Of a DNA stretch of 64,000 nt, positions 22,895 through 64,000 are shown piece after piece. The DNA lies in the NCBI RefSeq assembly GCF_003584165.1, contig NZ_QXFJ01000017.1:124001-188000 (forward strand), given 5' to 3'. A model generated the notes under the pieces. It had not been told where the DNA came from, searched no databases, and saw only the letters and a program-made list of their open reading frames with translations. The position numbers and the translations under genes are program-made. The DNA comes from Flagellimonas aequoris (GTDB lineage: Bacteria > Bacteroidota > Bacteroidia > Flavobacteriales > Flavobacteriaceae). Within the stretch, counting starts at the first letter, position 1. The number at the start of each line of letters is the position of its first letter.

Positions 22895-22928
22895 TTTTGT
22901 AACCCAGACCGCACATTTTAATCCAATT
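22895..22928 (+). promoter_or_regulatory. ECF sigma promoter P6 before flavin reductase 1
   Basis: TTTTGTAACC (22895-22904), 15 bases, then AATCCAATT (22920-22928). Spacing is identical to the other ECF-type promoters (31805, 33270, 33303, 34088, 46592). It ends 24 bases before the ATG at 22953 and supports that start over the ATG at 22869. Confidence 0.7.
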
Positions 22929-22952: not shown

Positions 22953-23669
22953 ATGAACGGTTTCATCTTTCCCTACACCACAAGACTTGTAAAAAAAGAA
23001 AAAGTCAACCACAATGTCGTCCGCTTTTCGGTCCAAAGACCCTTTGGGTTCAATTTTATTCCAGGTCAGGCTGTTGATCTGAGTATCGATCAGCCCGGTT
23101 GTGAATTGGAGGTGGCCCCCTTTACGATCATAAGTACCGAAGATGACCCATATCTGGAGTTCATCATTAAGATCCGGCCAAACAAGGACAGTTTGACCTA
23201 CCGTTTGTCCGCATTAAGGCCAGGCGCGGTAATCCAGCTCAGTCGGCCCTGGGATACTTTTGAATATAGGGGTCACGGACACTTTATTGCCGCCGGGACA
23301 GGTATTGTTCCCTTTATGCCCATTCTGGACTATATCCAAAGGTTTGGTCCAGAGTTTACGGAAAGCCATTTATTGGTCTATGCCACTAAAAGCAAAGAGG
23401 ATGTCCTGTTCGAAAAAAGATTGAGAAGGATGTTGGGCAATAATTTCATTACCAGATTGAGCAGCCCAACGGCAAGCGCAAAACTTCCAGGACGTATCGA
23501 TTTTGGGTTCCTCCAATCGATTGTCCAAAAAAAAGATCAATACTTTTATATCTGTGGGCCCAAGTCCTTTGAATTTGATATGATGACCCACTTGATGAAA
23601 ATAGGTGTTGACCAAAAACGGATCCAGACAGGTTATACGTTTGGACAGGGCAAACCCTTAAATTCCTGA
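22953..23669 (+). CDS. ferredoxin-NADP reductase-like flavoprotein (copy 1)
   Basis: A 238-residue FAD/NAD(P)H oxidoreductase of the ferredoxin reductase fold. FAD-binding segment: VVRFSVQRPFGFNFIPGQAV then APFTIIST; NAD(P) motif: HFIAAGTGIVPFMPIL; C-terminal YFYICGPKSF. It has no [2Fe-2S] or globin domain, so its partner must be separate; the upstream hemoglobin is a candidate. I chose the ATG at 22953 because an ECF-type promoter lies just before it and because the paralog at 32494-33159 aligns from here; an ATG at 22869 overlapping the previous stop would add 28 residues. The two paralogs share the reductase core. Confidence 0.88.
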   Translation: MNGFIFPYTTRLVKKEKVNHNVVRFSVQRPFGFNFIPGQAVDLSIDQPGCELEVAPFTIISTEDDPYLEFIIKIRPNKDSLTYRLSALRPGAVIQLSRPWDTFEYRGHGHFIAAGTGIVPFMPILDYIQRFGPEFTESHLLVYATKSKEDVLFEKRLRRMLGNNFITRLSSPTASAKLPGRIDFGFLQSIVQKKDQYFYICGPKSFEFDMMTHLMKIGVDQKRIQTGYTFGQGKPLNS

Positions 23670-29443: not shown

Positions 29444-30808
29444 TTATATGGATTTTAAATATTCTTGTAAATCGTCCTTATCACCTTGTGAGAGTTGAAG
29501 GTCAAAATGTCCATCGTAATGATCGATGACCTCGGCCAAGGTGGCAAATCTTCCATCATGGTAAAAGCCTCCTTTCATGCGGGCAAACAAGCCTCGCAAA
29601 GGTGTGGTCCTGTACATTCCCGTGGGCGATCTACTCGCTTCAAAATCATCGATTCCAATTTCCTCTGCTGTATGCAGGTTAAACCCGGCATCTGTGAAAA
29701 TGGGTGCGATGTGGCAGGTGGCACATTGTGCGGGACCATCGAAAAGGACCTTGCCCCGCTCAGCGGCCGCTACATCATAACTTCCTTCGGGAGGTGTCGG
29801 TGCATCCAATGACAATTGGTAGGCCTGCAGTGCTGGAAGTTTTCCGGTAATCAAATCCGGGGAATTGACCACATTGGCAAAATTATTTTCCACGGCTATG
29901 GGGAACATGCCCGCATCATTCAGCCTGGCATCTGTAAAGTTCCCTTGACCGTGCATTTCCAGATTGGCGACAAAGGCATTCCAATAGACCATATCCCCCC
30001 AACCGGTATAGGTCGCCAAATTAACGCCCTGCAATCCATAGGCCGCCGGAAGTAGGTTGGCGGCAATGGACCCATCAGGTCGTGTGGCGATACCATCCAC
30101 CATCAGGCCGGCATTAAACTTACCAGGGCCCCAACCATTCAATACTGCATTGACCGTAGGGACATCCACATGGAGCAAATCGGCCAAAAATTGGGCATTG
30201 TCCGTCAACGAAACAATGACACCTACATTTAAGTCCCTGTTGGGATGGCCATCCAATCGTTTGCCTATACCGGCAGAAAATGAATCATCCACGGTTGAGT
30301 GGCACAGGGCACACGTTATCCCGATGGAGGAAAGATCCCCGGCACCATCAAAATTGCCTTTGATCCCGACAACTGAATTCAACCGAAGCAATTCCACCGT
30401 TGTGGCCGGGTCATTCAGGTCAACATCCCCCGACTGTATCAAGGAGACCACTTCGTCTGGCAGTGCTTCCGCATCCACTTTAAGTCCAACAGCCAACGCT
30501 GTTGCCGGGCTCACACCTCCTCCATATCCTCCATTGTCCGCTCCCAGGATAGCCTTGTCAAGGTGAAGTACGCCGCTCCAAAACGCCTCATCCCCGAAAG
30601 TATCGTGTCTAAAGACCTCTTTACCCTCCGCCACGAGCACTGGATCAAGGCGCAATGTATCGATGGTGGTCTCGATAATGGTATCCGTGACCGTTTCCGT
30701 AATGGTCTCGGTAACCGTTTCGGTAATGGTCTCCGTCTTTGTACAACCGGACAAATAGGCGAACATTACAGTGAGTACCGATAATCTTAAATAAAAGTAT
30801 TTGTTCAT
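29444..30808 (-). CDS. di-heme cytochrome c peroxidase-like lipoprotein
   Basis: A 454-residue exported protein with lipobox LSGC (Cys22), then a low-complexity stalk of repeating T-E-T-[IV] units (residues 25-51), then a cytochrome-c-peroxidase/MauG-like domain with two heme motifs, CALCH (about residue 167) and CATCH (about 363). GGFYHDGRFATLAEVIDHY near the end is typical of this family. The lipid anchor and stalk should hold it on the membrane surface. It may reduce peroxide or pass electrons between cytochromes. It is the last gene before the cupredoxin operon on the same strand and is followed by a terminator. Confidence 0.87.
   Translation of the reverse strand: MNKYFYLRLSVLTVMFAYLSGCTKTETITETVTETITETVTDTIIETTIDTLRLDPVLVAEGKEVFRHDTFGDEAFWSGVLHLDKAILGADNGGYGGGVSPATALAVGLKVDAEALPDEVVSLIQSGDVDLNDPATTVELLRLNSVVGIKGNFDGAGDLSSIGITCALCHSTVDDSFSAGIGKRLDGHPNRDLNVGVIVSLTDNAQFLADLLHVDVPTVNAVLNGWGPGKFNAGLMVDGIATRPDGSIAANLLPAAYGLQGVNLATYTGWGDMVYWNAFVANLEMHGQGNFTDARLNDAGMFPIAVENNFANVVNSPDLITGKLPALQAYQLSLDAPTPPEGSYDVAAAERGKVLFDGPAQCATCHIAPIFTDAGFNLHTAEEIGIDDFEASRSPTGMYRTTPLRGLFARMKGGFYHDGRFATLAEVIDHYDGHFDLQLSQGDKDDLQEYLKSI
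30656..30736 (-). repeat. in-frame repeat coding T-E-T-[IV] stalk
   Basis: Degenerate 12-base units (ACNGAAACNRTT and variants) repeated about seven times, encoding the flexible acidic stalk after the lipid anchor of the peroxidase-like protein. Copy number may vary between strains. Confidence 0.7.
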
Positions 30809-30902: not shown

Positions 30903-31253
30903 TTATTCAACCGTAATGGTTCCCTTCATAACCTTGTGAAGGTTACAGAAATATTGTTCATCCTCTGTCACCACTTTACTCCAGACCTCATTTTGGCCAA
31001 AAGGTTTTGAAGTCCATTTGCGGTTTTTTTCATCGGTCACATCATGGAGGTAAAAATCTTTGTTCACCCATTCCACGGTATCCCCTTCCTTCACGGTCAA
31101 ATGGTCTGGAATGAACTTCATCCGGAATATTTTTACCGTGTGTTTCTTCGGGGGTTCTTCCATGACCTTGAGTTTGTTATAGGCCCAGACCTCCATAAAG
31201 AATGTCAACAGGATTATTGAGGACACCGTTATTTTTGGAATCAAGGATTTCAT
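30903..31253 (-). CDS. exported cupredoxin (plastocyanin-like)
   Basis: A 116-residue protein with an N-terminal hydrophobic anchor or signal (about residues 5-25) and a plastocyanin/azurin-like domain. Type 1 copper ligands are seen as DFYLHDV (His) and YFCNLHKVMKG (Cys, His, Met). It could carry electrons in the periplasm to NosZ, a peroxidase or an oxidase. The start at 31253 was chosen since it begins the hydrophobic segment and lies 4 bases after the DUF4142 stop. Second gene of an operon driven by an ECF-type promoter at 31805. Confidence 0.85.
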   Translation of the reverse strand: MKSLIPKITVSSIILLTFFMEVWAYNKLKVMEEPPKKHTVKIFRMKFIPDHLTVKEGDTVEWVNKDFYLHDVTDEKNRKWTSKPFGQNEVWSKVVTEDEQYFCNLHKVMKGTITVE

Positions 31254-31257
31254 TGTA

Positions 31258-31776
31258 TTACCCCTTAATATTCTTTTGGACCATTTCCGCATGTCCCAAA
31301 TGTGCTTCCAGGGCCGGCACCACGGCACTGAGCAATTCCTTTAATTCACTGTTTTCCGTTTCGGGGATCAAAAGGTTCTTTACCGCCCCAATAACCGCTT
31401 TATGATACGCTACTTCATTATCAATATAGGCTTCATCAAATTTTTTCTTGGCGGTTCTCTTCAATTTTTTCTTGGTCTTCTCGGCATCTGCCAAAAGGGA
31501 TTGACTGACCGTATTGTCCTTTGGGTTGACCCCCAATTTTTTGACCAATGCCACCGCCTGTGCAATCACTGCATTGTGGTCCTTGACCATTCTATTGGCA
31601 AAATCCAATATTTCCTTGTTATTGGACTTTTCCAAAGCTATCTGTGCATAATCGATATCAATTTGGTTCGCCACAACGGCCACTGACGCCACCTCAGTGT
31701 CCATCAACGGGGTTTCTTGTCCAAAAGCAAGGACACCCAACATTGCGATGACCACTAGACTAAAAGCTTTTCTCAT
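31258..31776 (-). CDS. DUF4142 exported four-helix protein
   Basis: A 172-residue protein with a signal peptide (about 1-19, ending LAFGQ) and a DUF4142 domain, a ferritin-like helical bundle: EVASVAVVANQIDIDYAQIAL, ANRMVKDHNAV and YIDNEVAYHKAVI are typical. The biochemical role of DUF4142 is unknown; members turn up in stress regulons. Its promoter carries the exact ECF elements used before the nearby sigma gene, including an identical 16-base box (GCATCCAATGGATGTA), with ATG 37 bases downstream of the -10. First gene of the operon with the cupredoxin. Confidence 0.87.
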   Translation of the reverse strand: MRKAFSLVVIAMLGVLAFGQETPLMDTEVASVAVVANQIDIDYAQIALEKSNNKEILDFANRMVKDHNAVIAQAVALVKKLGVNPKDNTVSQSLLADAEKTKKKLKRTAKKKFDEAYIDNEVAYHKAVIGAVKNLLIPETENSELKELLSAVVPALEAHLGHAEMVQKNIKG

Positions 31777-31804
31777 TTTTACAGTTTTTATTTGTTAATA
31801 CATC

Positions 31805-31838
31805 CATTGGATGCAAACGGGCGAATGCGGTTACAAAA
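31805..31838 (-). promoter_or_regulatory. ECF sigma promoter P1 (DUF4142-cupredoxin)
   Basis: On the minus strand TTTTGTAACC (31829-31838), 15 bases, CATCCAATG (31805-31813). The -10 continues into GGATGTA, giving the 16-mer GCATCCAATGGATGTA (31799-31814), identical to that at 33327-33342 before the sigma gene. Confidence 0.8.
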
Positions 31839-31840
31839 GT

Positions 31841-32494
31841 TTATTGGAAAGTCGACATGAACTCTTTTTTGGTCCATTCATTTTTGAACTTCCCCAAATA
31901 ACTCCCTGTCTTTGTATGGCTGTTATGGTCCTTGATGCCTCTCGAGGCCACGCAGAGATGGTTGGCCTCCACATATACGGCCACATGTTCCGTGTCCAAA
32001 AGGGCGGATAAGGTCTCCGCGATTTCCCTGGTCAATTTTTCCTGGACCTGTGGTTTTCTACCGATAAAGTCCACGATCCTATTGATCTTGGAAAGCCCAA
32101 TGACCTTTTTATTCGGAAAATATGCGACATTCACCTTTCCAAAAAAGGGCACAAAGTGGTGTTCGCAATAGGAATATAGACTAATGTCGTTGACAACAAC
32201 CATTTCATCAAAGTTGTAGGTATTGTCAAAAAAAGACACTTCGGGAAATTGGGCCTCATCCAGACCAATAAAGGCTTCATTTAAAAACATTTTTGCGACC
32301 CGTGCCGGCGTATCCTTTAAGCTAGGGTCATCCAGATCCAGCCCGAGCACCTCCATTATTCTACCAAAATGATGGGCGATTTCGGTCATTCTATCTTTAT
32401 TCCTTTGATGTTGGCAGGTCTCTCCATTGTACGACGCACCATTGACCCCGGCCATGGTACCCACTCCGGTTTGATCACGTTTACTATCCTTCAT
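31841..32494 (-). CDS. folE: GTP cyclohydrolase I
   Basis: First enzyme of folate and pterin synthesis: GTP to dihydroneopterin triphosphate. The 217-residue protein has the zinc and catalytic motif YCEHHFVPFFGK and the segment HLCVASRGIKD with the second zinc Cys. It overlaps the upstream reductase stop by one base and so shares the ECF-type promoter P5. In an organism likely to have another folE this copy may be a stress-linked version; it would feed QueD/PTPS beside norB. That link is inference. Confidence 0.94.
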   Translation of the reverse strand: MKDSKRDQTGVGTMAGVNGASYNGETCQHQRNKDRMTEIAHHFGRIMEVLGLDLDDPSLKDTPARVAKMFLNEAFIGLDEAQFPEVSFFDNTYNFDEMVVVNDISLYSYCEHHFVPFFGKVNVAYFPNKKVIGLSKINRIVDFIGRKPQVQEKLTREIAETLSALLDTEHVAVYVEANHLCVASRGIKDHNSHTKTGSYLGKFKNEWTKKEFMSTFQ

Positions 32495-33159
32495 TAATAT
32501 CCTATTTGTATGTTGCGCTCCTTGACGCCAAGATTCATTAAAAGGCCCTTTACGTTTTGGGAGAAGGCATCAGGCCCGCACACATAAAAATATTGATCGG
32601 GTTCGGTGACCCTGGAATTCAAATATTTTCTGTCAATTCTTCCATGTGCGTATCCAGCCGCCCGTTCTCTGCTCAGGATATTGCAACAATGAAGCCCCAA
32701 GAACTCCTCGAGTTCATTTTTAAGGATAATGTCCTCCAAGTTCCGATTGGCATAGATCAATTTATGTCCTGATAGGGTCCCCCGCCTTTTGGCCTCCTTG
32801 ATCATGGGGATAAAAGGCGTAATACCGGACCCGGCCGCAATGAACGTTCCCTTGCCCAGATATTCAAAGGACCTCCACGCTTCACTTATGTCCAATGTAT
32901 CCCCAATTTCCTTTTTGGAAAGGGCGGCCGTAAAACCTTTCCGATCAGGGTAGACCTTGATGATCAGTTCCAGGACTGTTGAATCGGGTAAATTGGTCAA
33001 GGTAAAAGGTGCCGATCGTTGTTTCGGCCCACTGGGCTCCAATATAATATCCACCGCATCGCCGATGGAACATTGAAATTCCTTTGGTCTTTCCAAGACA
33101 AACTGAATTACATTGTGGGTCAACCACTCCTTTCTTATGATTTTTACTAAAAATCCCAT
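32494..33159 (-). CDS. ferredoxin-NADP reductase-like flavoprotein (copy 2)
   Basis: A 221-residue FAD/NAD(P)H reductase, paralog of the gene at 22953: shared VIQFVLERP, SAPFTLTNLP, FIAAGSGITPFIPMI and YFYVCGPDAF segments. No [2Fe-2S] or globin domain. Start at 33159 by alignment with the paralog; ATGs at 33168 and 33228 are also in frame. Its stop overlaps the folE start, so the pair is one operon, downstream of the ECF-type promoter P5 that is back to back with the sigma gene promoter. Confidence 0.88.
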   Translation of the reverse strand: MGFLVKIIRKEWLTHNVIQFVLERPKEFQCSIGDAVDIILEPSGPKQRSAPFTLTNLPDSTVLELIIKVYPDRKGFTAALSKKEIGDTLDISEAWRSFEYLGKGTFIAAGSGITPFIPMIKEAKRRGTLSGHKLIYANRNLEDIILKNELEEFLGLHCCNILSRERAAGYAHGRIDRKYLNSRVTEPDQYFYVCGPDAFSQNVKGLLMNLGVKERNIQIGY

Positions 33160-33269
33160 GATAATCATATTTAAGGCCAATTTTGTACCTTGACTGTAGT
33201 GGTACGATGGCATTTTCCAATCTTCCATTTTGGTACCTGGCCTTTCACATAGAAAAGTCCAGCACCACA

Positions 33270-33302
33270 GGTTAGATGATAATTTTAATAGGCGGTTACA
33301 AA
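33270..33302 (-). promoter_or_regulatory. ECF sigma promoter P5 (reductase-folE), divergent
   Basis: On the minus strand TTTGTAACC (33294-33302), 15 bases, CATCTAACC (33270-33278). Its -35 is one half of a 21-base palindrome whose other half is the -35 of the sigma gene promoter. Distance to the ATG at 33159 is about 110 bases, so the mRNA would have a leader. Confidence 0.7.
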
Positions 33303-33336
33303 TTTTGTAACCGAAAAGACATTAATGCATCCAATG
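33303..33336 (+). promoter_or_regulatory. ECF sigma promoter P2 (sigma gene autoregulation)
   Basis: TTTTGTAACC (33303-33312), 15 bases, CATCCAATG (33328-33336), 28 bases before the ATG at 33365. The -10 region is the same 16-mer as in front of DUF4142. Suggests that the sigma factor transcribes its own gene. Confidence 0.8.
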
Positions 33337-33364
33337 GATGTAGCCCAACTAAAAATGGAACATC

Positions 33365-34045
33365 ATGGTGGCAAGCAAAAACGATTTTATCCAATCCGAA
33401 AAAATACTACCGGACCATGTGGTCGTGGAAAAAGTATTGAATGGGGAGACCGAACTATTTGAAATCTTAATGAGGAGATACAATGAGTTATTGTTTCGTA
33501 CCGTACGGAGCTATTTCAATCAGGATACCGATGTCGAGGACATCATGCAGGATGCCTATGTAAAGGCCTATCAAAAATTATATCAATTCAAAAATGAATC
33601 TACTTTTTCGACTTGGTTGGTACGGATAGGGATCAATGAAGCACTACAGCGAAAGCGAAAACTGAAAAATTATAGATCGACCGCCCTTGAATACGAGACG
33701 GGTGTTCTTCAAATTGCAGATACTTCAGTCATGAACCCAGAAAACAATACCATTTACAAAGAGTCGACTGCCTTTATAGAAAAGGCGGTCGATACGCTCC
33801 CCCAAAAGTATAAGATCATCTTTATCCTTAGGGAGGTGGAAGGCATGGAGATTCCTGAGATATCCAAAAGTCTTGATCTGACCGTCAGCAATGTAAAAGT
33901 ACGATTGTTCAGGGCGAGGAACATGATCAAGGATTATATCTTTACGGCCACAAACACCAAGAATATATTTGAATTTGGCAACCACAAATGCGACCGCCTT
34001 GTGGAATTGGTCCTTAAAAGGATTCAGCATATGGAACTGGGTTAA
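33365..34045 (+). CDS. ECF-type RNA polymerase sigma factor
   Basis: A 226-residue extracytoplasmic-function sigma factor. Region 2 (LFEILMRRYNELLFRTVRSY ... DVEDIMQDAYVKAY ... STWLVRIGINEAL) and region 4 (LPQKYKIIFILREVEGMEIPEISKSL, VSNVKVRLFRARNMIKDYI) are clear. The C-terminal 35 residues carry one Cys (HKCDRLVELVLKRI), a pattern seen in some ECF factors that read out signals. No classical anti-sigma gene follows; the next gene is a DoxX-like membrane protein. Six promoters with the same two boxes and exact 15-base spacing lie in this window, including one upstream of this gene, so it very likely controls them. Confidence 0.92.
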   Translation: MVASKNDFIQSEKILPDHVVVEKVLNGETELFEILMRRYNELLFRTVRSYFNQDTDVEDIMQDAYVKAYQKLYQFKNESTFSTWLVRIGINEALQRKRKLKNYRSTALEYETGVLQIADTSVMNPENNTIYKESTAFIEKAVDTLPQKYKIIFILREVEGMEIPEISKSLDLTVSNVKVRLFRARNMIKDYIFTATNTKNIFEFGNHKCDRLVELVLKRIQHMELG

Positions 34046-34087
34046 TGTTTGATACAATAGATAAAAAGCGAAGACTTATATCATACT

Positions 34088-34121
34088 TTTTGTAACCCGT
34101 CCATGACATCTGCATCTAAAG
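34088..34121 (+). promoter_or_regulatory. ECF sigma promoter P4 (DoxX-like gene)
   Basis: TTTTGTAACC (34088-34097), 15 bases, CATCTAAAG (34113-34121), 23 bases before the ATG at 34145. It excludes the further upstream ATG (34103) as a start. Confidence 0.72.
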
Positions 34122-34144: not shown

Positions 34145-34507
34145 ATGATACTTGCCAATGTACAAAAAGTGCAAAATTTATTGAAATATACGTTTGGAAT
34201 TGTTCCAATCGTAGCTGGACTGGACAAGTTTACGAATTTATTGACGGATTGGTCCCAATATATGTCAACCGGTCTTATTGAAGCATTGCCCGTGGATATA
34301 GGAATTTTTATGGGTATTATCGGAGTGGTCGAGATCGCAGCCGGGGTAGTCGTTTTTGTACGGACTATAATCGGTGGTTATATAGTCGCCCTCTGGTTGA
34401 CCTTGATAGCATTGGTTTTGATTTTTACCGGCAATCATTTCGATGTGGCCGTGAGGGACTTGGTCATGGCCATTGCGGCCCTGTCCTTGGTAAAATTATC
34501 CGAATAG
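34145..34507 (+). CDS. DoxX-like small membrane protein
   Basis: A 120-residue protein with four hydrophobic helices; the pattern KYTFGIVPIVAGLDKFTNLLTDW and a C-terminal VRDLVMAIAALSLVKL is like DoxX/DoxD family proteins. The start at 34145 follows from the ECF-type promoter. DoxX proteins often join redox or sulfur metabolism complexes; function here is unknown. It lies 99 bases after the sigma gene, so it may be a regulated target or, less likely, a membrane partner that signals to the sigma factor. Confidence 0.82.
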   Translation: MILANVQKVQNLLKYTFGIVPIVAGLDKFTNLLTDWSQYMSTGLIEALPVDIGIFMGIIGVVEIAAGVVVFVRTIIGGYIVALWLTLIALVLIFTGNHFDVAVRDLVMAIAALSLVKLSE

Positions 34508-46591: not shown

Positions 46592-46625
46592 TTTTGTAAC
46601 CGATTCCCTTTAAAATCATCCAATG
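46592..46625 (+). promoter_or_regulatory. ECF sigma promoter P3
   Basis: TTTTGTAACC (46592-46601), 15 bases, CATCCAATG (46617-46625). Same boxes and spacing as the sigma gene promoter. The next gene begins at 46774, giving a leader of about 135 bases with no other gene between. Confidence 0.75.
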
Positions 46626-57893: not shown

Positions 57894-58694
57894 CTACCGC
57901 AATTTTTTGGTCAGTACCACCTTTCGGCTTCCGTGCAGTTCACCAAGTTCCAGTTTCAGCCGTTCCCCATCCCCCATCACGAATTTGGGCACCACATATA
58001 CAAAACGTTCGCTCCGGTGGCTCCTTACCATATCAGGCCTATCATGCGTGTAACGTACATGTATTCCTGACTCTTGGAAGGAGGCCCTTCGCTTTTGGCT
58101 CCCATTGACCCGCACCACATCCAAATAGGCCATCCCAAAATCAATGTCCGATCGGTTTTGGATCTTGATGATCATATAGACCTCCCCGCCATCATAGATC
58201 ACACCCTCCAATTGGAGCCGTATCCCCCTTTTCTGTTTGGTCGCCATGGCACGGTATTCTTTCTGCAATAATGCCCTGCAATAATCCGCATACCGAAGGT
58301 CAACACCTTCGGTCCTTTCCATTACCGACACATTTTCTTCATCGGGCCGTTCATTCCCTATCCGGTCTACTTTCCGAAGAAAACGATAGGTATGGACCAG
58401 TGTATCGGAGAACGCAATAACGAAGGCATATACACTTCCATCGGTGGTAATGACCAATAAATCACTGGCAGGACCAGGTATTCCTTGCAAGAGGCCCAAA
58501 TAGCCCGCCAGTTCCCTATTGTAGGTGAAGGTAAAGTTATCGTTTCCCGTTACCGCTTGCCGTATAGGGCTTGGAAAAAAGAGGGCCAGATTATTGTCCT
58601 TGTTGGCATAAAGGGTATCCAAGGGCTGTTGACCCGACATACACCCTGAAAGGGCCAGCCCCAAAAAGGGAAAAAGTATATTCTTTAGTCTCAT
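57894..58694 (-). CDS. traN: conjugative transposon protein TraN (VirB9-like lipoprotein)
   Basis: A 266-residue outer-face lipoprotein, lipobox ALSGC (Cys18). DUF4138/TraN family, analogous to VirB9, part of the conjugation core complex. C-terminal beta-rich domain (IKIQNRSDIDFGMAYLDV, VVPKFVMGDGERLKLELGE) is typical. Its start overlaps the traM stop by 4 bases. The last tra gene on this strand in the window; convergent with clc. Confidence 0.88.
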   Translation of the reverse strand: MRLKNILFPFLGLALSGCMSGQQPLDTLYANKDNNLALFFPSPIRQAVTGNDNFTFTYNRELAGYLGLLQGIPGPASDLLVITTDGSVYAFVIAFSDTLVHTYRFLRKVDRIGNERPDEENVSVMERTEGVDLRYADYCRALLQKEYRAMATKQKRGIRLQLEGVIYDGGEVYMIIKIQNRSDIDFGMAYLDVVRVNGSQKRRASFQESGIHVRYTHDRPDMVRSHRSERFVYVVPKFVMGDGERLKLELGELHGSRKVVLTKKLR

Positions 58695-59623
58695 GATCCT
58701 GGTTTTAAGATGAATTGATATTGATTGCCAAGGGCTACTTTGACCGCCCTATGGTCTCTTTTAAAGATTTGTCCAATCCCATTGAGCCGTGGCAGCCCGG
58801 GCAGGTCCACTCCATCCATGGCTCGATCCATGCCCCGTTCGATTACTGCTCCTGCCAGATGGTTCTCGATATAGATCCCCTCCCTACCATCCTGTAGGTC
58901 ATACCCCTTCAGGGCCATGGGGGTTCCATTCATTTGGTCCAGACTGACCATGACCCTATTGGGTCGGATCTTCACAAAAGCGTATATCTTGGTCCCTTTG
59001 GGAAAAGTTCGATCTTGAATTTTGGTTTCCCGCGCCAACCTAAGGGCCAACCGATGACCTTCCCTGACCACTTGATCGCCGTCCACATGGACCAAAACAC
59101 CGATCTGTTCCCTTGTATTCCCCATACCAATGACCGGTTTGGGATTGGAAGCAAAAAAAAGTTGGTGTCTTAGGGCCGGTTCCCCTACCGAAAGAAGAGT
59201 CCCAGCTGGTTTTGAACCTGCATTTTCTTTCCATTCCACCAACTTTTGTACTTGTACCGTTTCCTCCCTGCGCTCAAGCGGGGTGCTTATTTGCCTATGG
59301 TTTGTGGACGCATAAACACTATCAATGATCCGTTGTTTCTCATATTCCATATAATCGGGATTGAAGTACCCCTTGTCGTCCACCATATGGTCGGGATATA
59401 TTGGTGGTGCGGTAGACTCCCGCTCTTCTTCAATGGCCTCCAAAGCCTCCAACTTCGTTCCATACACCTGTTGGTTATCTTCCAAGTCAGGTATGGGAAT
59501 ACGGTCTGGCGCCAATTCCTCCTTTTTATTCTTTCCAAAGGTCAGGATGCCGTATACGATAGTGAACAACACGACGCATACCATGACCAGTACAAATACG
59601 ATTTTATTTTTTTGTGGTTTCAT
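58691..59623 (-). CDS. traM: conjugative transposon protein TraM (VirB10-like)
   Basis: A 310-residue membrane-anchored protein: one N-terminal helix (about 7-29), a proline- and acid-rich periplasmic linker (PDRIPIPDLEDNQ) and a C-terminal beta domain (GVLVHVDGDQVVREG, LAGAVIERGMDR). VirB10-like scaffold of the T4SS channel. Start at 59623 overlaps traK by 20 bases. Usual in Bacteroidota CTnDOT-like elements. Confidence 0.88.
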   Translation of the reverse strand: MKPQKNKIVFVLVMVCVVLFTIVYGILTFGKNKKEELAPDRIPIPDLEDNQQVYGTKLEALEAIEEERESTAPPIYPDHMVDDKGYFNPDYMEYEKQRIIDSVYASTNHRQISTPLERREETVQVQKLVEWKENAGSKPAGTLLSVGEPALRHQLFFASNPKPVIGMGNTREQIGVLVHVDGDQVVREGHRLALRLARETKIQDRTFPKGTKIYAFVKIRPNRVMVSLDQMNGTPMALKGYDLQDGREGIYIENHLAGAVIERGMDRAMDGVDLPGLPRLNGIGQIFKRDHRAVKVALGNQYQFILKPGS

Positions 59624-60230
59624 TGTTTTCAATTTTACGAAGTGAGTTTTCAAAAAAATCCATGATCAACAGCCCATGGGGATTGTGTGGGAAATGCCGT
59701 TCCACAGCCATCAGTTTGCCAGAGGTGGACAACTCATAGGTGTCGGTGACACTGCCCCTGTTGATATGGAAAACGGTTCGGGTCTCGAACCGGTAGGGTT
59801 CCGTTGCCAAATCGATCTTGGAATCAATGCGCTCCACCTTTTGGACCAGGGAATACTGCATCAAGCGGTTATAGAACCCATCGGCCTTCTTTTGCCTGAA
59901 CAGGGCATCCACCGAGGCATCCCCCAGCCAAAGGGCCTTTTCCATATGACGTCCATAATTGGCCGCATCCACTTCATAGAACCACCGATGGAATTGCTCC
60001 AAATGGGCCAAGGCCTCCACTTCGAGGTTCTCCCGTTCATGGATCCATTGTAAGGGAATGACGTCGCCCGAACCATTGACCACAAAGGCACTATTGAGGA
60101 TATTTTTGTGCATTTGGGCCACGATGGTAACGGAAATGATACAGACCAATCCCGAAACAATGACTACCGAGAGTACTACCCAGCGGTTCAATCGCAGTTG
60201 TTGTTGTATATTTTTAAAAGATGTTTTCAT
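59604..60230 (-). CDS. traK: conjugative transposon protein TraK (VirB8-like)
   Basis: A 208-residue protein with one N-terminal helix (about 17-40) and a periplasmic VirB8-like domain (HRWFYEVDAANYGRHMEKALWLGDAS). Core T4SS component. Start at 60230; the two previous codons also include an ATG at 60236. It is followed directly by traM with a 20-base overlap; the gene traL of CTnDOT-type operons, normally here, is missing. Confidence 0.88.
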   Translation of the reverse strand: MKTSFKNIQQQLRLNRWVVLSVVIVSGLVCIISVTIVAQMHKNILNSAFVVNGSGDVIPLQWIHERENLEVEALAHLEQFHRWFYEVDAANYGRHMEKALWLGDASVDALFRQKKADGFYNRLMQYSLVQKVERIDSKIDLATEPYRFETRTVFHINRGSVTDTYELSTSGKLMAVERHFPHNPHGLLIMDFFENSLRKIENNETTKK

Positions 60231-60242
60231 AGGCATATGTAT

Positions 60243-61082
60243 TTAACCATTGAACAGGCGCAGGGTAAAGCTCGTGGCCTTACGATAGAGCTTGAACTTG
60301 AGCAACACAATGAAGCCAATAGATCCAAATTCGATGATCGGAGCAAAAAACTCACTGCCCCAATCCGTTCCGAACAGGCTGCTCCAAAAATTGGTATTGA
60401 TCTCCGTATAGAGGTTGTTCACGAATACGTTGACCAAGAAAAAGGCCGGCACCAGCATATAGACCCCTGTGTACAATTTAAAATAGGTATAGGCCAGACT
60501 GCGGAACTTCTCAAATACCGATAGGCTGATGACCAAGGGAAAAAAGGCCTGTAGGATCCCTAACAGGAAATAGCGTTCGGCCAAGAAGAGCGGATAGATG
60601 AAGATATCCAACAACCACAAGATGACCCCTATGATAAAAGCCAACATTTTCAATCCGTACAGTGGGGTGACCAAGGCCTCATATAAAATGGCCATGGCTT
60701 TTTTGGCGGCTTCCAAGGCACCCACATCCCGTTCCAGATCTACGTCCTGCAGTTGTAAGGGGAGGAGTGCCGGAGCCGTGTCCCTATATTGGGATTCGAT
60801 GGCCACCAGAATGCCATCGAACACGCCCAGTATCTCAGTGGAGAAAATGACCAACAGCACGATCACAAAGTTCTTTGCCAGCTCTGTGGGGGTAAGGCCC
60901 CAGGTATGCCCATCCGTGGCGGCGATCCCCTCTTGGTATTTTTTAAGGATATTGACCAAAAAGAACAGCACGGCCAAGGACTTCATCCCTATAATCGTAT
61001 ATTGGGAAAAATCACTGTTCTTGATGGTCTGAAAGACGGCATCCACATATTCCAACCCTATGCCCAAAAAAATACCTGCCAT
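60243..61082 (-). CDS. traJ: conjugative transposon protein TraJ (VirB6-like)
   Basis: A 279-residue polytopic membrane protein with about six helices and a hydrophilic N-terminal segment. VirB6-like channel component: segments LYGLKMLAFIIGVILWLLDI and AERYFLLGILQAFFPLVISLSVFEKFRSLA. It is shorter than many TraJ (about 330 or more), but both ends look complete. Starts at the traI stop (one-base overlap). Confidence 0.87.
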   Translation of the reverse strand: MAGIFLGIGLEYVDAVFQTIKNSDFSQYTIIGMKSLAVLFFLVNILKKYQEGIAATDGHTWGLTPTELAKNFVIVLLVIFSTEILGVFDGILVAIESQYRDTAPALLPLQLQDVDLERDVGALEAAKKAMAILYEALVTPLYGLKMLAFIIGVILWLLDIFIYPLFLAERYFLLGILQAFFPLVISLSVFEKFRSLAYTYFKLYTGVYMLVPAFFLVNVFVNNLYTEINTNFWSSLFGTDWGSEFFAPIIEFGSIGFIVLLKFKLYRKATSFTLRLFNG

Positions 61083-61687
61083 CAGTATTCCTTTTCCCGG
61101 TTATTGATGATATCCTGCATTTTTCGAAAGGAGATGATTTCCCGATAGCGTCGGGTCTTTACCCCCAACTCTGCCACCATTTCCCGGGATGCCACCTTTT
61201 TCTCCATTAAAATGGCCGTCCGCTCGGCATCGGTCATCTTCAAAAAATCGCTGGAGAGGATCTGGTTCACAAAATCCAGGTCATCAAGGGCCGTGTCCAT
61301 GATCTCCTCAAAGGAAGTGGAGATCCGTGTCACCTCATCAGCCTTGATATATGGGGAATTCAAGATATCCCTGAGATCGTTCTGTACGGTTTGGAAAAGG
61401 ATTTCATTGTTCTTGGCCAGTTCCTTGACGGCCTTCAATTGCTTGATGGTATTGTTCACCTTGACAATATTATCCTTTTGCTCTTTTAAAAACTCCACGG
61501 TCCTTAAGAGTTCCGAGGTTTGCTTGGCGGACTCCACCAAGGACTTGGTCATGCTGATAAAGTTCGTATTGTCATACACCGGCATCCCCTGGCAGGCAGC
61601 ACCTGCTGGCAGTAATAGGGCGATGGTCAGGGCCATTGATAAGGTCAGGACTTTTCTCCTGATGGGTTGTTTCTTAGGTAGTCTCAT
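61082..61687 (-). CDS. traI: conjugative transposon protein TraI (DUF4141)
   Basis: A 201-residue protein with signal peptide (about 1-32) and a long coiled-coil (EFLKEQKDNIVKVNNTIKQL). DUF4141, VirB5-like pilus or channel component. Overlaps traG by 14 bases, typical of tra operons. Confidence 0.85.
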   Translation of the reverse strand: MRLPKKQPIRRKVLTLSMALTIALLLPAGAACQGMPVYDNTNFISMTKSLVESAKQTSELLRTVEFLKEQKDNIVKVNNTIKQLKAVKELAKNNEILFQTVQNDLRDILNSPYIKADEVTRISTSFEEIMDTALDDLDFVNQILSSDFLKMTDAERTAILMEKKVASREMVAELGVKTRRYREIISFRKMQDIINNREKEY

Positions 61688-64000
61688 ATGTTTTCTTTTT
61701 AAGGTTCAAGAATTCTTTGATGGCTTGTTCCATGTTTTGGGTCTTTTCATAACACCGCATGATCTGGTCATTCTCCTTACCATCAGTGAGGTATGCGGCA
61801 TAGACCTCAGGGGGGACCTCCAACCGAAATACATTACTTTCCTTACCGATCTTGATAAAGATCTCGGTATACTTGCGGCTGCCCGTCAGGTTGTTGCGAA
61901 TGGATCGGAGTTGGTTCAGGTCATGGCCTGAGAGGTTCAATCGTTTTTTCAGTTCCCCATAGCCCTTTTCATTTCTAAGGCTATAGATGACCTGGGTATT
62001 CTCGAGGATGCTGGCGGCCATTGAATTGTCCGGTAATTGGTTGATGGATTGCAGGATGATGCCAATGGCGCCATTTTGTTTGCGTATGGCCTGATAGTAG
62101 AATTCCACACTTTCCAATACATTGGGAAACTTCAATTGTTTGGCAAACTCATCAAAGAGGATAATGCCCCGTTTGGACCTATTGTTCCAAATGGTGCGCT
62201 GTATGGCGGATTTGATGAGTTTGAGCATCACGGATAGGATTTCCCTATTGTCCCTGACCTCATCCAGTTCAAAGACGATCAATTGTTTGTTCTCCAGCTT
62301 GTGGGTCTGGTCCGTACCTACATCGAACAAGAAGCTATACAATCCCTTATCCACATATTCGGAGAGGATATGTAAAAAGTCGTAGACATTGAAATCGGTT
62401 TCCTTGAGATGGATTTCTTGGATTAGGGTATCCTTTCGTCGATCTACAAAGTGGTAGAGCGAAGTCAGGGAATGTTCCCTTTGGGTATGTTCGTAATAGT
62501 ACAACAATACCTTTTTGAGGGCCACCTGTCTGGACTTGTTCGCCCTACCCTCTGCCAAGAGTTCGAGAAGGAACAGGGTCAGGTCCTCCAAGCGCTCGGG
62601 ATCCAGGTCTGATGGATCGGAAATATAAAAGGGATTGATCCCTAAATTTTTCCCATGCACATAGCGCAGAATAATATGCCTATCCGGATAGAGTTGGGCA
62701 AACTTGGTATAGGAACCGCCCAGATCGATGATGACCAATTGAACACCTGCTTCGAAATATTGACGAAGGATGTTATTGGCCAGAAAGGACTTCCCCTCTC
62801 CCGTAGGGGCAAAAATGGCAAAGTTACGGGCCTTGATCCGCTTCTTTTCGGTATCCCAGACATCCTTGAGCACAGGGATATTGTATTGGCGGTCGTTAAA
62901 GATCACTCCCTCGCCATCGGATCTGTAATTGGTGTTGTTGATATAGAGGCACAGGGCATGTTTCAATTCGGAGACATACAGATCTTCATTGGAAAAGTTT
63001 GGGGCATGGCAAGGATGCGAATTCAAAAAGTACTGCTTGCGTTCTTCCCCATTGGGATGGTAGGGTACCATATCGAGTCCCTTGAACTCCGCTTTGATCT
63101 TCGAGGCGATCCGTTTTAAAAATTGCTGTTCCTGGTGCCAGAAGACGATGTTCAGGTGCCCACGGATTATGCGGGAATGATCATCTTGGTTGATTTGATC
63201 GACAATGTCCCGGATTTTTTGAAGGACCACTTTGTTTTGGGTGCCGAAATTGGAACTTTTGGAGAGCTCTTCGATTTTTTTGTCCAGGGTTCTGCGCCAT
63301 TTCTGTTTGTCATCCAGATACATGATATGGTTGACGATATGGTTTTCCTTGAGATCCAGTCCCAGACTGTCCAAATAGCCCTGATGGAATGCAAAGTCAT
63401 CCGTGGAGAACCTACCATTGGGCAAGCTGCTTTGCACGGATTCCCCAAAGCAGAGTTCATTGTTGATGGCCATGGCGTCAAAATAGTGGTCCCCAATCGT
63501 TATATGTTTATTTTCCAATAGGATATCCGTATCGAAATCCATATTGAACCCATTGAAGTAGGCATGGGTATGGGCCAAGATCTCTTTCGATCCCATGGGA
63601 AGGACGGTAATGGACTTTGAGTTATTGATATAGGAAACAGCGTCATTTACAGCGGTGATGAACTCGGCCACCTGTAGATCCAATTTTCTATGGTATCCCT
63701 TTTCCATTTTCCGAAAGGGGTTCACATATTTGGTGGCATTGAGCACTTTGTCCAATGGGAGTACAAAGAAGAGATGGCTATCGTGCCCTATATACTCCCT
63801 GCCTTTGAAATAATCATGCGTGGCCCGCTCCAAAAAGGTATTGCTGTTGAGCTGCACTGCCGTGTAGCCCTTTTTTTGATAAATATCCTGTTTATGGATG
63901 ACCGTTGCCGTCGGCAGGGATTTAAAGGCCTGGAACCAGGTCCCGTGCAGTACTTCAAAATCCCTTTCAGAAAGGGAATATACCTCGGGCAGTTCCACGG
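61674..64000 (-). CDS. traG: conjugation ATPase TraG (VirB4-like), 5' end outside window
   Basis: Large ATPase energising the conjugation channel. The frame is open to the right edge (the apparent first Met at 63998 is a GTG), so the N-terminus is cut; about 775 residues are seen. Walker A is APTGEGKSFL (about residue 396 in the visible part), Walker B RGIILFDEFA (about 628) and the downstream AIRKQNGAIGIILQSINQL is the family's C-terminal motif. First of the traG-traI-traJ-traK-traM-traN run. Confidence 0.93.
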   Translation of the reverse strand, partial: VELPEVYSLSERDFEVLHGTWFQAFKSLPTATVIHKQDIYQKKGYTAVQLNSNTFLERATHDYFKGREYIGHDSHLFFVLPLDKVLNATKYVNPFRKMEKGYHRKLDLQVAEFITAVNDAVSYINNSKSITVLPMGSKEILAHTHAYFNGFNMDFDTDILLENKHITIGDHYFDAMAINNELCFGESVQSSLPNGRFSTDDFAFHQGYLDSLGLDLKENHIVNHIMYLDDKQKWRRTLDKKIEELSKSSNFGTQNKVVLQKIRDIVDQINQDDHSRIIRGHLNIVFWHQEQQFLKRIASKIKAEFKGLDMVPYHPNGEERKQYFLNSHPCHAPNFSNEDLYVSELKHALCLYINNTNYRSDGEGVIFNDRQYNIPVLKDVWDTEKKRIKARNFAIFAPTGEGKSFLANNILRQYFEAGVQLVIIDLGGSYTKFAQLYPDRHIILRYVHGKNLGINPFYISDPSDLDPERLEDLTLFLLELLAEGRANKSRQVALKKVLLYYYEHTQREHSLTSLYHFVDRRKDTLIQEIHLKETDFNVYDFLHILSEYVDKGLYSFLFDVGTDQTHKLENKQLIVFELDEVRDNREILSVMLKLIKSAIQRTIWNNRSKRGIILFDEFAKQLKFPNVLESVEFYYQAIRKQNGAIGIILQSINQLPDNSMAASILENTQVIYSLRNEKGYGELKKRLNLSGHDLNQLRSIRNNLTGSRKYTEIFIKIGKESNVFRLEVPPEVYAAYLTDGKENDQIMRCYEKTQNMEQAIKEFLNLKKKTYETT

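Follow-up and report, generated by a model that had tools for sequence, protein, structure and literature searches.

A predicted self-contained ECF sigma factor regulon with a conserved promoter code in Flagellimonas aequoris

The stretch of DNA analysed here, called the window below, is made of 64,000 nucleotides of Flagellimonas aequoris (contig NZ_QXFJ01000017.1, positions 124,001 to 188,000); all coordinates without a locus name are those of the window. It carries a gene for an extracytoplasmic function (ECF) sigma factor at 33365-34045. As far as sequence comparison can tell, this sigma factor very probably activates its own gene and drives five neighbouring units through a shared promoter code, i.e. 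it heads a conserved ECF regulon. The sigma gene and the six predicted promoters, each an exact match to TTTGTAACC-N15-[CA]ATC[CT]AA, are the following:

22896-22926, + strand: P6, predicted promoter of a second reductase gene
31807-31837, - strand: P1, predicted promoter of a DUF4142-cupredoxin-(di-heme) operon
33272-33302, - strand: P5, predicted divergent promoter of reductase-folE, with its -35 back to back with that of P2
33304-33334, + strand: P2, predicted autoregulatory promoter of the sigma gene
33365-34045, + strand: ECF sigma factor of 226 amino acids (aa), with a C-terminal extension of about 30 residues that holds Cys209
34089-34119, + strand: P4, predicted promoter of a DoxX/MauE-like gene
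46593-46623, + strand: P3, predicted promoter of the gene for a 171-aa membrane protein

The window holds these six exact matches and 100 shuffles of it hold none. The first-pass annotation had listed the same six sites, with ends off by 0-2 bases. The -35 is TTTGTAAC at all six sites (6/6), the -10 is GCATCCAA at P1 and P2 and a variant of [CA]ATC[CT]AA at the other four, and 17 bases separate AAC from ATC. P1 and P2 also have GCATCCAATGGATGTA in common, the identical 16-mer that had been pointed out for this pair. Gene starts are our own open reading frame (ORF) calls, some of them reset from orthologs. On this basis the first base of the -10 lies 37 bases before the ATG for P1 and P2, 32 for P4 (ATG 34145) and 33 for P6 (ATG 22953), which agrees with the earlier figure of 32-37 bases for four of the six. 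It is 157 bases for P3; for P5 it is 50 if the called start is used, and 119 with the start that the orthologs point to (33159).

In the whole genome (4,238,297 bases) the looser form TTTGTAAC-N17-ATCYAA has exactly six matches, namely P1-P6, all on the contig of the window (C17), where they span 23.7 kb and surround a single ECF sigma gene. The reversed control has none genome-wide, so that the matches are not at the random density that would have spoken against a regulon. When up to three mismatches were allowed the motif gave 218 matches vs 212 for the reversed control; there are 12 sites with two mismatches and none with one. As forward and control counts are nearly equal, no tail of degenerate sites is visible and the set is sharp; additional degenerate sites elsewhere in the genome were rejected on these counts.

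The sigma factor itself scores above the cut-offs of Pfam Sigma70_r2 and Sigma70_r4_2, with no other sigma domain listed. Having only the sigma2 and sigma4 domains it is assigned to the ECF sigma factors. It also passes the curated cut-off of NCBIfam PRK11922 (NF008888; 213.6 bits for a cut-off of 204), and a PADLOC scan of it returned no match. The best named relative, from Allomuricauda abyssi W52, is 99% identical, and the genome of F. aequoris contains 10 other ECF-like matches to it (E up to 1e-10). Its own promoter, P2, bears the motif of its predicted targets, so that by sequence the gene qualifies as autoregulated.

Orthologs were collected with a profile of the sigma factor (E up to 1e-60) and are present in 13 of the 71 genomes of the genus and in 28 of the 349 genomes sampled from the family. 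In the genus, the exact motif occurs in all 13 sigma-positive genomes (40 sites) vs 8 of the 58 sigma-negative ones (10 sites; Fisher p 3.5e-9), and its reversed control has 11 matches over all 71 genomes. If ATCHAA is allowed, 27 of the 28 sigma-bearing genomes have sites, 90 in total vs 9 control matches. One near-identical stray site is common to three sigma-negative genomes (G031, G087 and G030).

The code is also conserved around the relatives of the sigma factor. We examined 60 loci (1.18 Mb), all at or near such relatives; L065 (same locus as L221), L235 and L160 were omitted. TGTAAC and ATC[ACT]AA are found 6-30 bases apart in 136 pairs, 120 of which are at 17 bases; no other spacing exceeds 4, and in the reversed control the peak is at most 3. 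Together, the shuffles, the genome scan, the co-occurrence in the genus and this fixed spacing led us to reject a chance origin of the motif set. When loci were anchored on TGTAAC alone, a strong -10 box appeared at the expected place in the regulon genes (106 rows) and none in other genes (42 rows); this anchoring left out nine loci, i.e. five of the clade C described below, L222, L233, L235 and the duplicate L065.

A looser motif (TGTAAC, 15-17 bases, xATC[ACT]A) was counted from 200 bases before to 100 after the called start. It is present at 43/59 sigma genes, 30/43 DoxX-like genes, 11/14 DUF4142 genes, 7/14 first reductases and 7/7 second reductases (that of the window included), at 4/15 di-heme, 2/15 FolE and 0/15 cupredoxin genes, and at 7/996 other ORFs, 0/5 globins and 0/6 other ECFs. 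The low counts for FolE and cupredoxin fit inner genes of operons. The motif thus precedes the same gene families in several genera of Flavobacteriaceae, and also in one metagenome-assembled genome of Ignavibacteriae. The latter encodes a sigma factor 52% identical to that of the window, its promoters stand back to back in the same way, and the DoxX-like, reductase, FolE and di-heme genes all have relatives in it. Back-to-back -35 elements with gaps of 5-6 bases recur in many loci. The comparison of genomes thus shows the promoter code, its spacing, the target families and the co-occurrence with the sigma factor; it also favours the proposal of the first-pass annotation that this sigma factor reads all six sites, and would therefore transcribe from P1-P6, its own gene included.

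The genes predicted to depend on these promoters are:

22953-23669, + strand: second FAD/NAD(P)-binding reductase (Pfam), start set by orthologs
29444-30808, - strand: MauG/cytochrome-c-peroxidase-like di-heme protein with two CxxCH motifs and a weak match to TIGR03791 (42 bits for a cut-off of 444)
30903-31256, - strand: cupredoxin, amicyanin/plastocyanin-like (PF00127; TIGR02657 below cut-off)
31258-31776, - strand: DUF4142 protein (PF13628, E 1.4e-32)
31841-32494, - strand: FolE, GTP cyclohydrolase I (Pfam and NCBIfam)
32494-33228, - strand: FAD/NAD(P)-binding reductase (Pfam NAD_binding_1 and FAD_binding_6), true start probably 33159 according to ortholog starts
34145-34507, + strand: small DoxX/MauE-like membrane protein; the ORF from 34103 begins too early, inside P4
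46774-47289, + strand: 171-aa protein, a membrane protein by eye, of no recognised family

DUF4142 is a widespread domain of unknown function. The DUF4142-cupredoxin operon proposed before probably also takes in the di-heme gene, which follows the cupredoxin gene at about 95 bases and has a motif of its own in 4/15 orthologs. We place it as the probable last gene of the P1 operon because of gene order and of these motif-bearing orthologs. The two CxxCH motifs of its product (166-170 and 362-366) are invariant in 4 sequences; a sequence search of the PDB gave 0 matches for this protein, and its AlphaFold model is too poor to be used (pLDDT 32.5). For the first reductase the same kind of search returned 29 distinct sequences, including cytochrome b5 reductases and flavohaemoglobins. 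Three copies of folE are above cut-off in the genome, so that of the window is an extra copy. Matches of the DoxX/MauE-like class are weak throughout, with MauE for 8/9 members (best E 0.0019) and with DoxX for 5/9 (best E 0.008). The second reductase gene is separated by one short ORF from a globin-family gene. The 171-aa protein has no Pfam or NCBIfam match; its gene and the P3 site are conserved together in G080 (97% identity) and in G005 (71%, with a -10 ATCAAA and flanks that have diverged).

A tree of 66 sequences, in which several forks are weakly supported, shows three clades, that of the window (A), another (B) and a deeper one (C), and groups five proteobacterial sequences together (98/88). 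The one clade-C sequence scanned with PRK11922 (L234) reaches 158.7 bits, below the cut-off, and the place of clade C in the family hence rests on the tree. Clade-C loci present another dialect of the code: TGTAACC-N16-ACTCTA precedes sigma, di-heme, DoxX-like or DUF4142 genes in L228, L232, L234 and L129, and a 123-aa gene of no assigned class in L230. No such site is found in L229. A related CTCTCTAA box stands before DUF4142 in L222, which the tree places outside clade C. Four more loci were scanned for an ACTCTA-type box and have none; the other loci hold 2 clade-C-type sites in 0.99 Mb. In five whole genomes the clade-C pattern gives six matches, all at clade-C sigma loci, and the control 0.

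On one contig (G318:C85, 36.6 kb, L129/L130) three sigma paralogs come from clades A, B and C; those of A and B use one dialect (ATC[CT]AA) and that of C the other (ACTCTA). In the 25 aligned rows viewed out of 64, the sigma2 stretch is approximately STWL.RI..NEAL in clades A and B and in Proteobacteria, and (K/R)TW(I/L)..IM.N.C in clade C, while the sigma4 stretch is SNVKVR-like in Bacteroidota and ETA(K/R)TR-like in Proteobacteria. These residue differences may cause the promoter switch. In clade B, a gene for a 127-aa, His-rich protein, lipoprotein-like by eye, follows the DoxX-like gene (L161:10005-10388; equivalents in L034-L037).

The nearest described system is RpoE8 of Sinorhizobium meliloti (SMb20592), which represents group ECF29 and for which a -35 GGGAAC and a -10 GCATCCAA are given in PMC6180224. 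There, genes for a “putative outer membrane protein” and for amicyanin lie downstream of rpoE8, for which no anti-sigma is known. ECF29 also appears in the group table of PMC8999054. In the rpoE8 locus of pSymB the first of these genes matches the DUF4142 profile and the next the cupredoxin profile; RpoE8 scores 323.1 bits on PRK11922 and the clade-B sequence of L163 230.0. Over six proteobacterial loci the DUF4142 and cupredoxin profiles each match in 5/6. In plasmid loci of rhizobia, Methylosinus and Variovorax, xATC[CT]A follows GGGAAC at 17 bases (18 in Variovorax), and the pair precedes DUF4142 in four of these loci and the sigma gene in Variovorax; AAC and ATC are 17 bases apart in RpoE8, L181, L182, L184 and L185. 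RpoE8 thus shares with the sigma factor of the window the PRK11922 family, the -10 GCATCCAA, the 17-base spacing, the adjacent DUF4142 and amicyanin-like genes and a tail of the form F..(R/K)C. It differs by the -35 (GGGAAC vs TTTGTAAC) and by the sigma4 stretch (ETA(K/R)TR-like vs SNVKVR). Moreover, the six proteobacterial loci are devoid of DoxX-like, FolE and di-heme genes, and only Variovorax has a reductase.

Because the -35 is not GGGAAC we did not file the system of the window as ECF29. Its sigma factor appears rather to be a relative of that group from the Bacteroidota, and the local regulon predicted for it is larger. The system is a Bacteroidota variant of a known, poorly studied ECF type, and not wholly without precedent. 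The first-pass annotation knew of no described regulon with this gene content; this needs qualifying, as RpoE8, with the same -10 and spacing and a DUF4142-amicyanin pair beside it, is a precedent. In the library searched, no paper combined three of ECF sigma factor, DUF4142, cupredoxin, GTP cyclohydrolase and DoxX, and none had PRK11922; for amicyanin and DUF4142, PMC6180224 alone turned up. PMC5507510 and PMC8103513 contribute nothing about this system.

Other known ECFs are more distant. ECF16 (EcfF/OsrA of Bradyrhizobium; RpoE7 of S. meliloti) has a -35 TGTAACC or similar and small regulons, but its -10 is CGAA or CG(t/a) and its anti-sigma is a DUF1109 membrane protein (PMC3420878, PMC6180224). 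We rejected membership of ECF16, since the -10 of the window is ATC[CT]AA and no DUF1109 was found among the 10 window proteins scanned. CorE, the copper-responsive ECF238, resembles the sigma factor of the window by Cys in a C-terminal extension, and no separate anti-sigma is seen for it; it has however a Cys-rich domain and a CXC linker (PMC8999054), where the sigma factor of the window has one near-invariant Cys. OrbS, an on-board iron sensor, is another ECF said to sense by itself.

Several observations speak against a regulon of the kind proposed, or against parts of it. Among the 28 sigma-bearing genomes, G171 is without an exact site and G173 has a single one, far from its sigma gene. 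G088 and G027 hold a P6-like site and no sigma gene. Sixteen of the 59 sigma genes are devoid of the motif, although variants (TTTGTACC and TTTGTATC) are visible for two of them (L148 and L149). In S. meliloti, RpoE8 overexpressed 126-fold had 0 targets, and amcY was up 2.6- to 3.2-fold, not down, in strains lacking rpoE8-SMb20593 (PMC6180224). Sigma factors of this family may thus need a signal or a partner, unless the targets were wrongly guessed. The promoter region of S. meliloti rpoE8 is also tabled as a PhaR-motif site marked “Efficient” (PMC12542648), so that other regulators may also act on the sigma gene. Lastly, the DoxX-like and 171-aa membrane proteins could be anti-sigmas, and the AlphaFold model of the sigma factor (mean pLDDT 60, below 50 in the tail) is too poor for a structural reading and lends no support to a sensor in the tail.

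The G088 site is in a segment (L235, G088:C20:158000-176000) whose globin, second reductase and qNOR are 98-99% identical to those of the window. The site could be left over from a transfer, and some of the island appears to move independently.

In the mechanism that we propose, the sigma factor would direct RNA polymerase to TTTGTAAC[CT]-N15-xATC[CTA]AA promoters. It would positively autoregulate its gene through P2 and target DUF4142-cupredoxin-di-heme, reductase-folE, the DoxX/MauE-like gene, the second reductase and the 171-aa membrane protein. The set of cupredoxin, di-heme protein, flavin reductases and DoxX/MauE-like protein suggests a response to redox or metal stress, and the products would act in the membrane and the periplasm. 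No anti-sigma family was recognised among ten window proteins scanned with Pfam, and in the mechanism proposed no separate anti-sigma would be used. The tail after sigma4 is conserved in 64 relatives (the tree without the spurious long-branch ORFs L144_16987 and L223_162): the Cys is found in 63/64, the ORF of the exception stopping before the tail, Phe204 in 62/64 and Val216 in 62/64. As a guess, which we make tentatively, this Cys tail could set the activity as an on-board redox or metal sensor, with amplification by autoregulation; we weakly prefer it because it is the sole extra feature seen in all groups.

A somewhat less probable arrangement is that the sites are promoters of this sigma factor, but that it is held by a DoxX/MauE-like membrane anti-sigma, possibly released on a quinone or thiol change. 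The DoxX-like gene is the commonest neighbour (within 2 kb of the sigma gene in 41/59) and the best candidate, and may be downstream, divergent or in a DoxX-sigma operon (L232; L234, with a 4-base overlap); the case of ECF16 moreover indicates that an anti-sigma can be a small membrane protein with several spans (PMC3420878). It is nevertheless absent from all six proteobacterial loci (8.0-10.7 kb) and from the 2 kb around 18/59 sigma genes by our ORF calls, and has its own target promoter in 30/43 cases, as an effector would.

The window also contains nosZ, nosL, an Rrf2 regulator, qNOR, two truncated globins recognised by Pfam, NrdD and cbb3-type subunits (61-47000), and the second reductase comes just after a globin gene. 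We consider it unlikely, though, that the regulon is part of nitric-oxide/denitrification control. None of these respiratory genes has the motif, and qNOR is above cut-off in 3/5 clade-A sigma genomes of the genus, 0/8 clade-B and 6/58 sigma-negative ones (the clade of two of the clade-A genomes was assigned from promoter sequences); in G005 qNOR and the sigma gene are about 289 kb apart. As a general rule, then, a nitric-oxide link through qNOR finds no support, and relatives do not generally share the denitrification setting of the window.

The sigma factor of the window could also be a bystander, the motif being read by another or several ECFs, but this is improbable. Two of the three stray sites of G071 and that of G061 adjoin a different ECF of about 290-312 aa, with genes that look SRPBCC-like by eye (L076 and L072). 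The same type of ECF is found in G023 (L243, G023:C1 at about 352-354 kb), in a cluster with three TTTGTAACA-N15-[TC]ATCAAA sites, and there has a Cys-containing C-terminal extension; the cluster may be another self-contained regulon, with a code that is almost the same. The TGTAACC of ECF16 and the P6-like sites of G088 and G027 go in the same direction. The motif nevertheless tracks the window-type sigma factor across genera and sits on its gene, sigma-negative genomes are at background, and both -35 and -10 vary between the clades of this sigma family. The idea of a private sigma-motif pairing must then be softened: co-occurrence in the genus upholds it, but the motif is not absolutely private, as other genomes of the genus have a different ECF whose sites, TTTGTAACA...ATC[AC]AA, are almost the same.

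That TTTGTAACC is the half-site of a DNA-binding dimer, with the P5/P2 pair as operator, is very improbable: GGTTACAAA-T-TTTGTAACC is indeed an inverted repeat, with similar -35 pairs in many loci, but P1, P3, P4 and P6 are single copies and every site has its second box at a fixed distance on one side. At P5/P2 (33272-33334) the divergent -35 elements are only 5 bases apart, hence two polymerases probably cannot occupy the region simultaneously.

Beyond the window, PRK11922/ECF29-like sigma factors of Proteobacteria, Bacteroidota and Ignavibacteria might form one family acting without an anti-sigma. Their one-Cys tail would sense redox or metal directly and they would control a periplasmic DUF4142-cupredoxin-di-heme module. 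The code would have changed box by box (GGGAAC/GCATCCAA, TTTGTAAC/CATCTAA, TTTGTAAC/ACTCTA), each change with altered residues in sigma4 or sigma2. We regard this extension as conceivable, but speculative. With its single conserved cysteine available for mutation and six promoters usable directly as reporters, the locus provides a larger predicted regulon to work on; it would give DUF4142 a regulatory context. The promoter dialects are a natural series for mapping sigma residues to the bases they read, and possibly give mutually insulated promoters for engineering.

At the end of the window (58691-63707) several ORFs resemble conjugative-transfer (tra) genes by eye.

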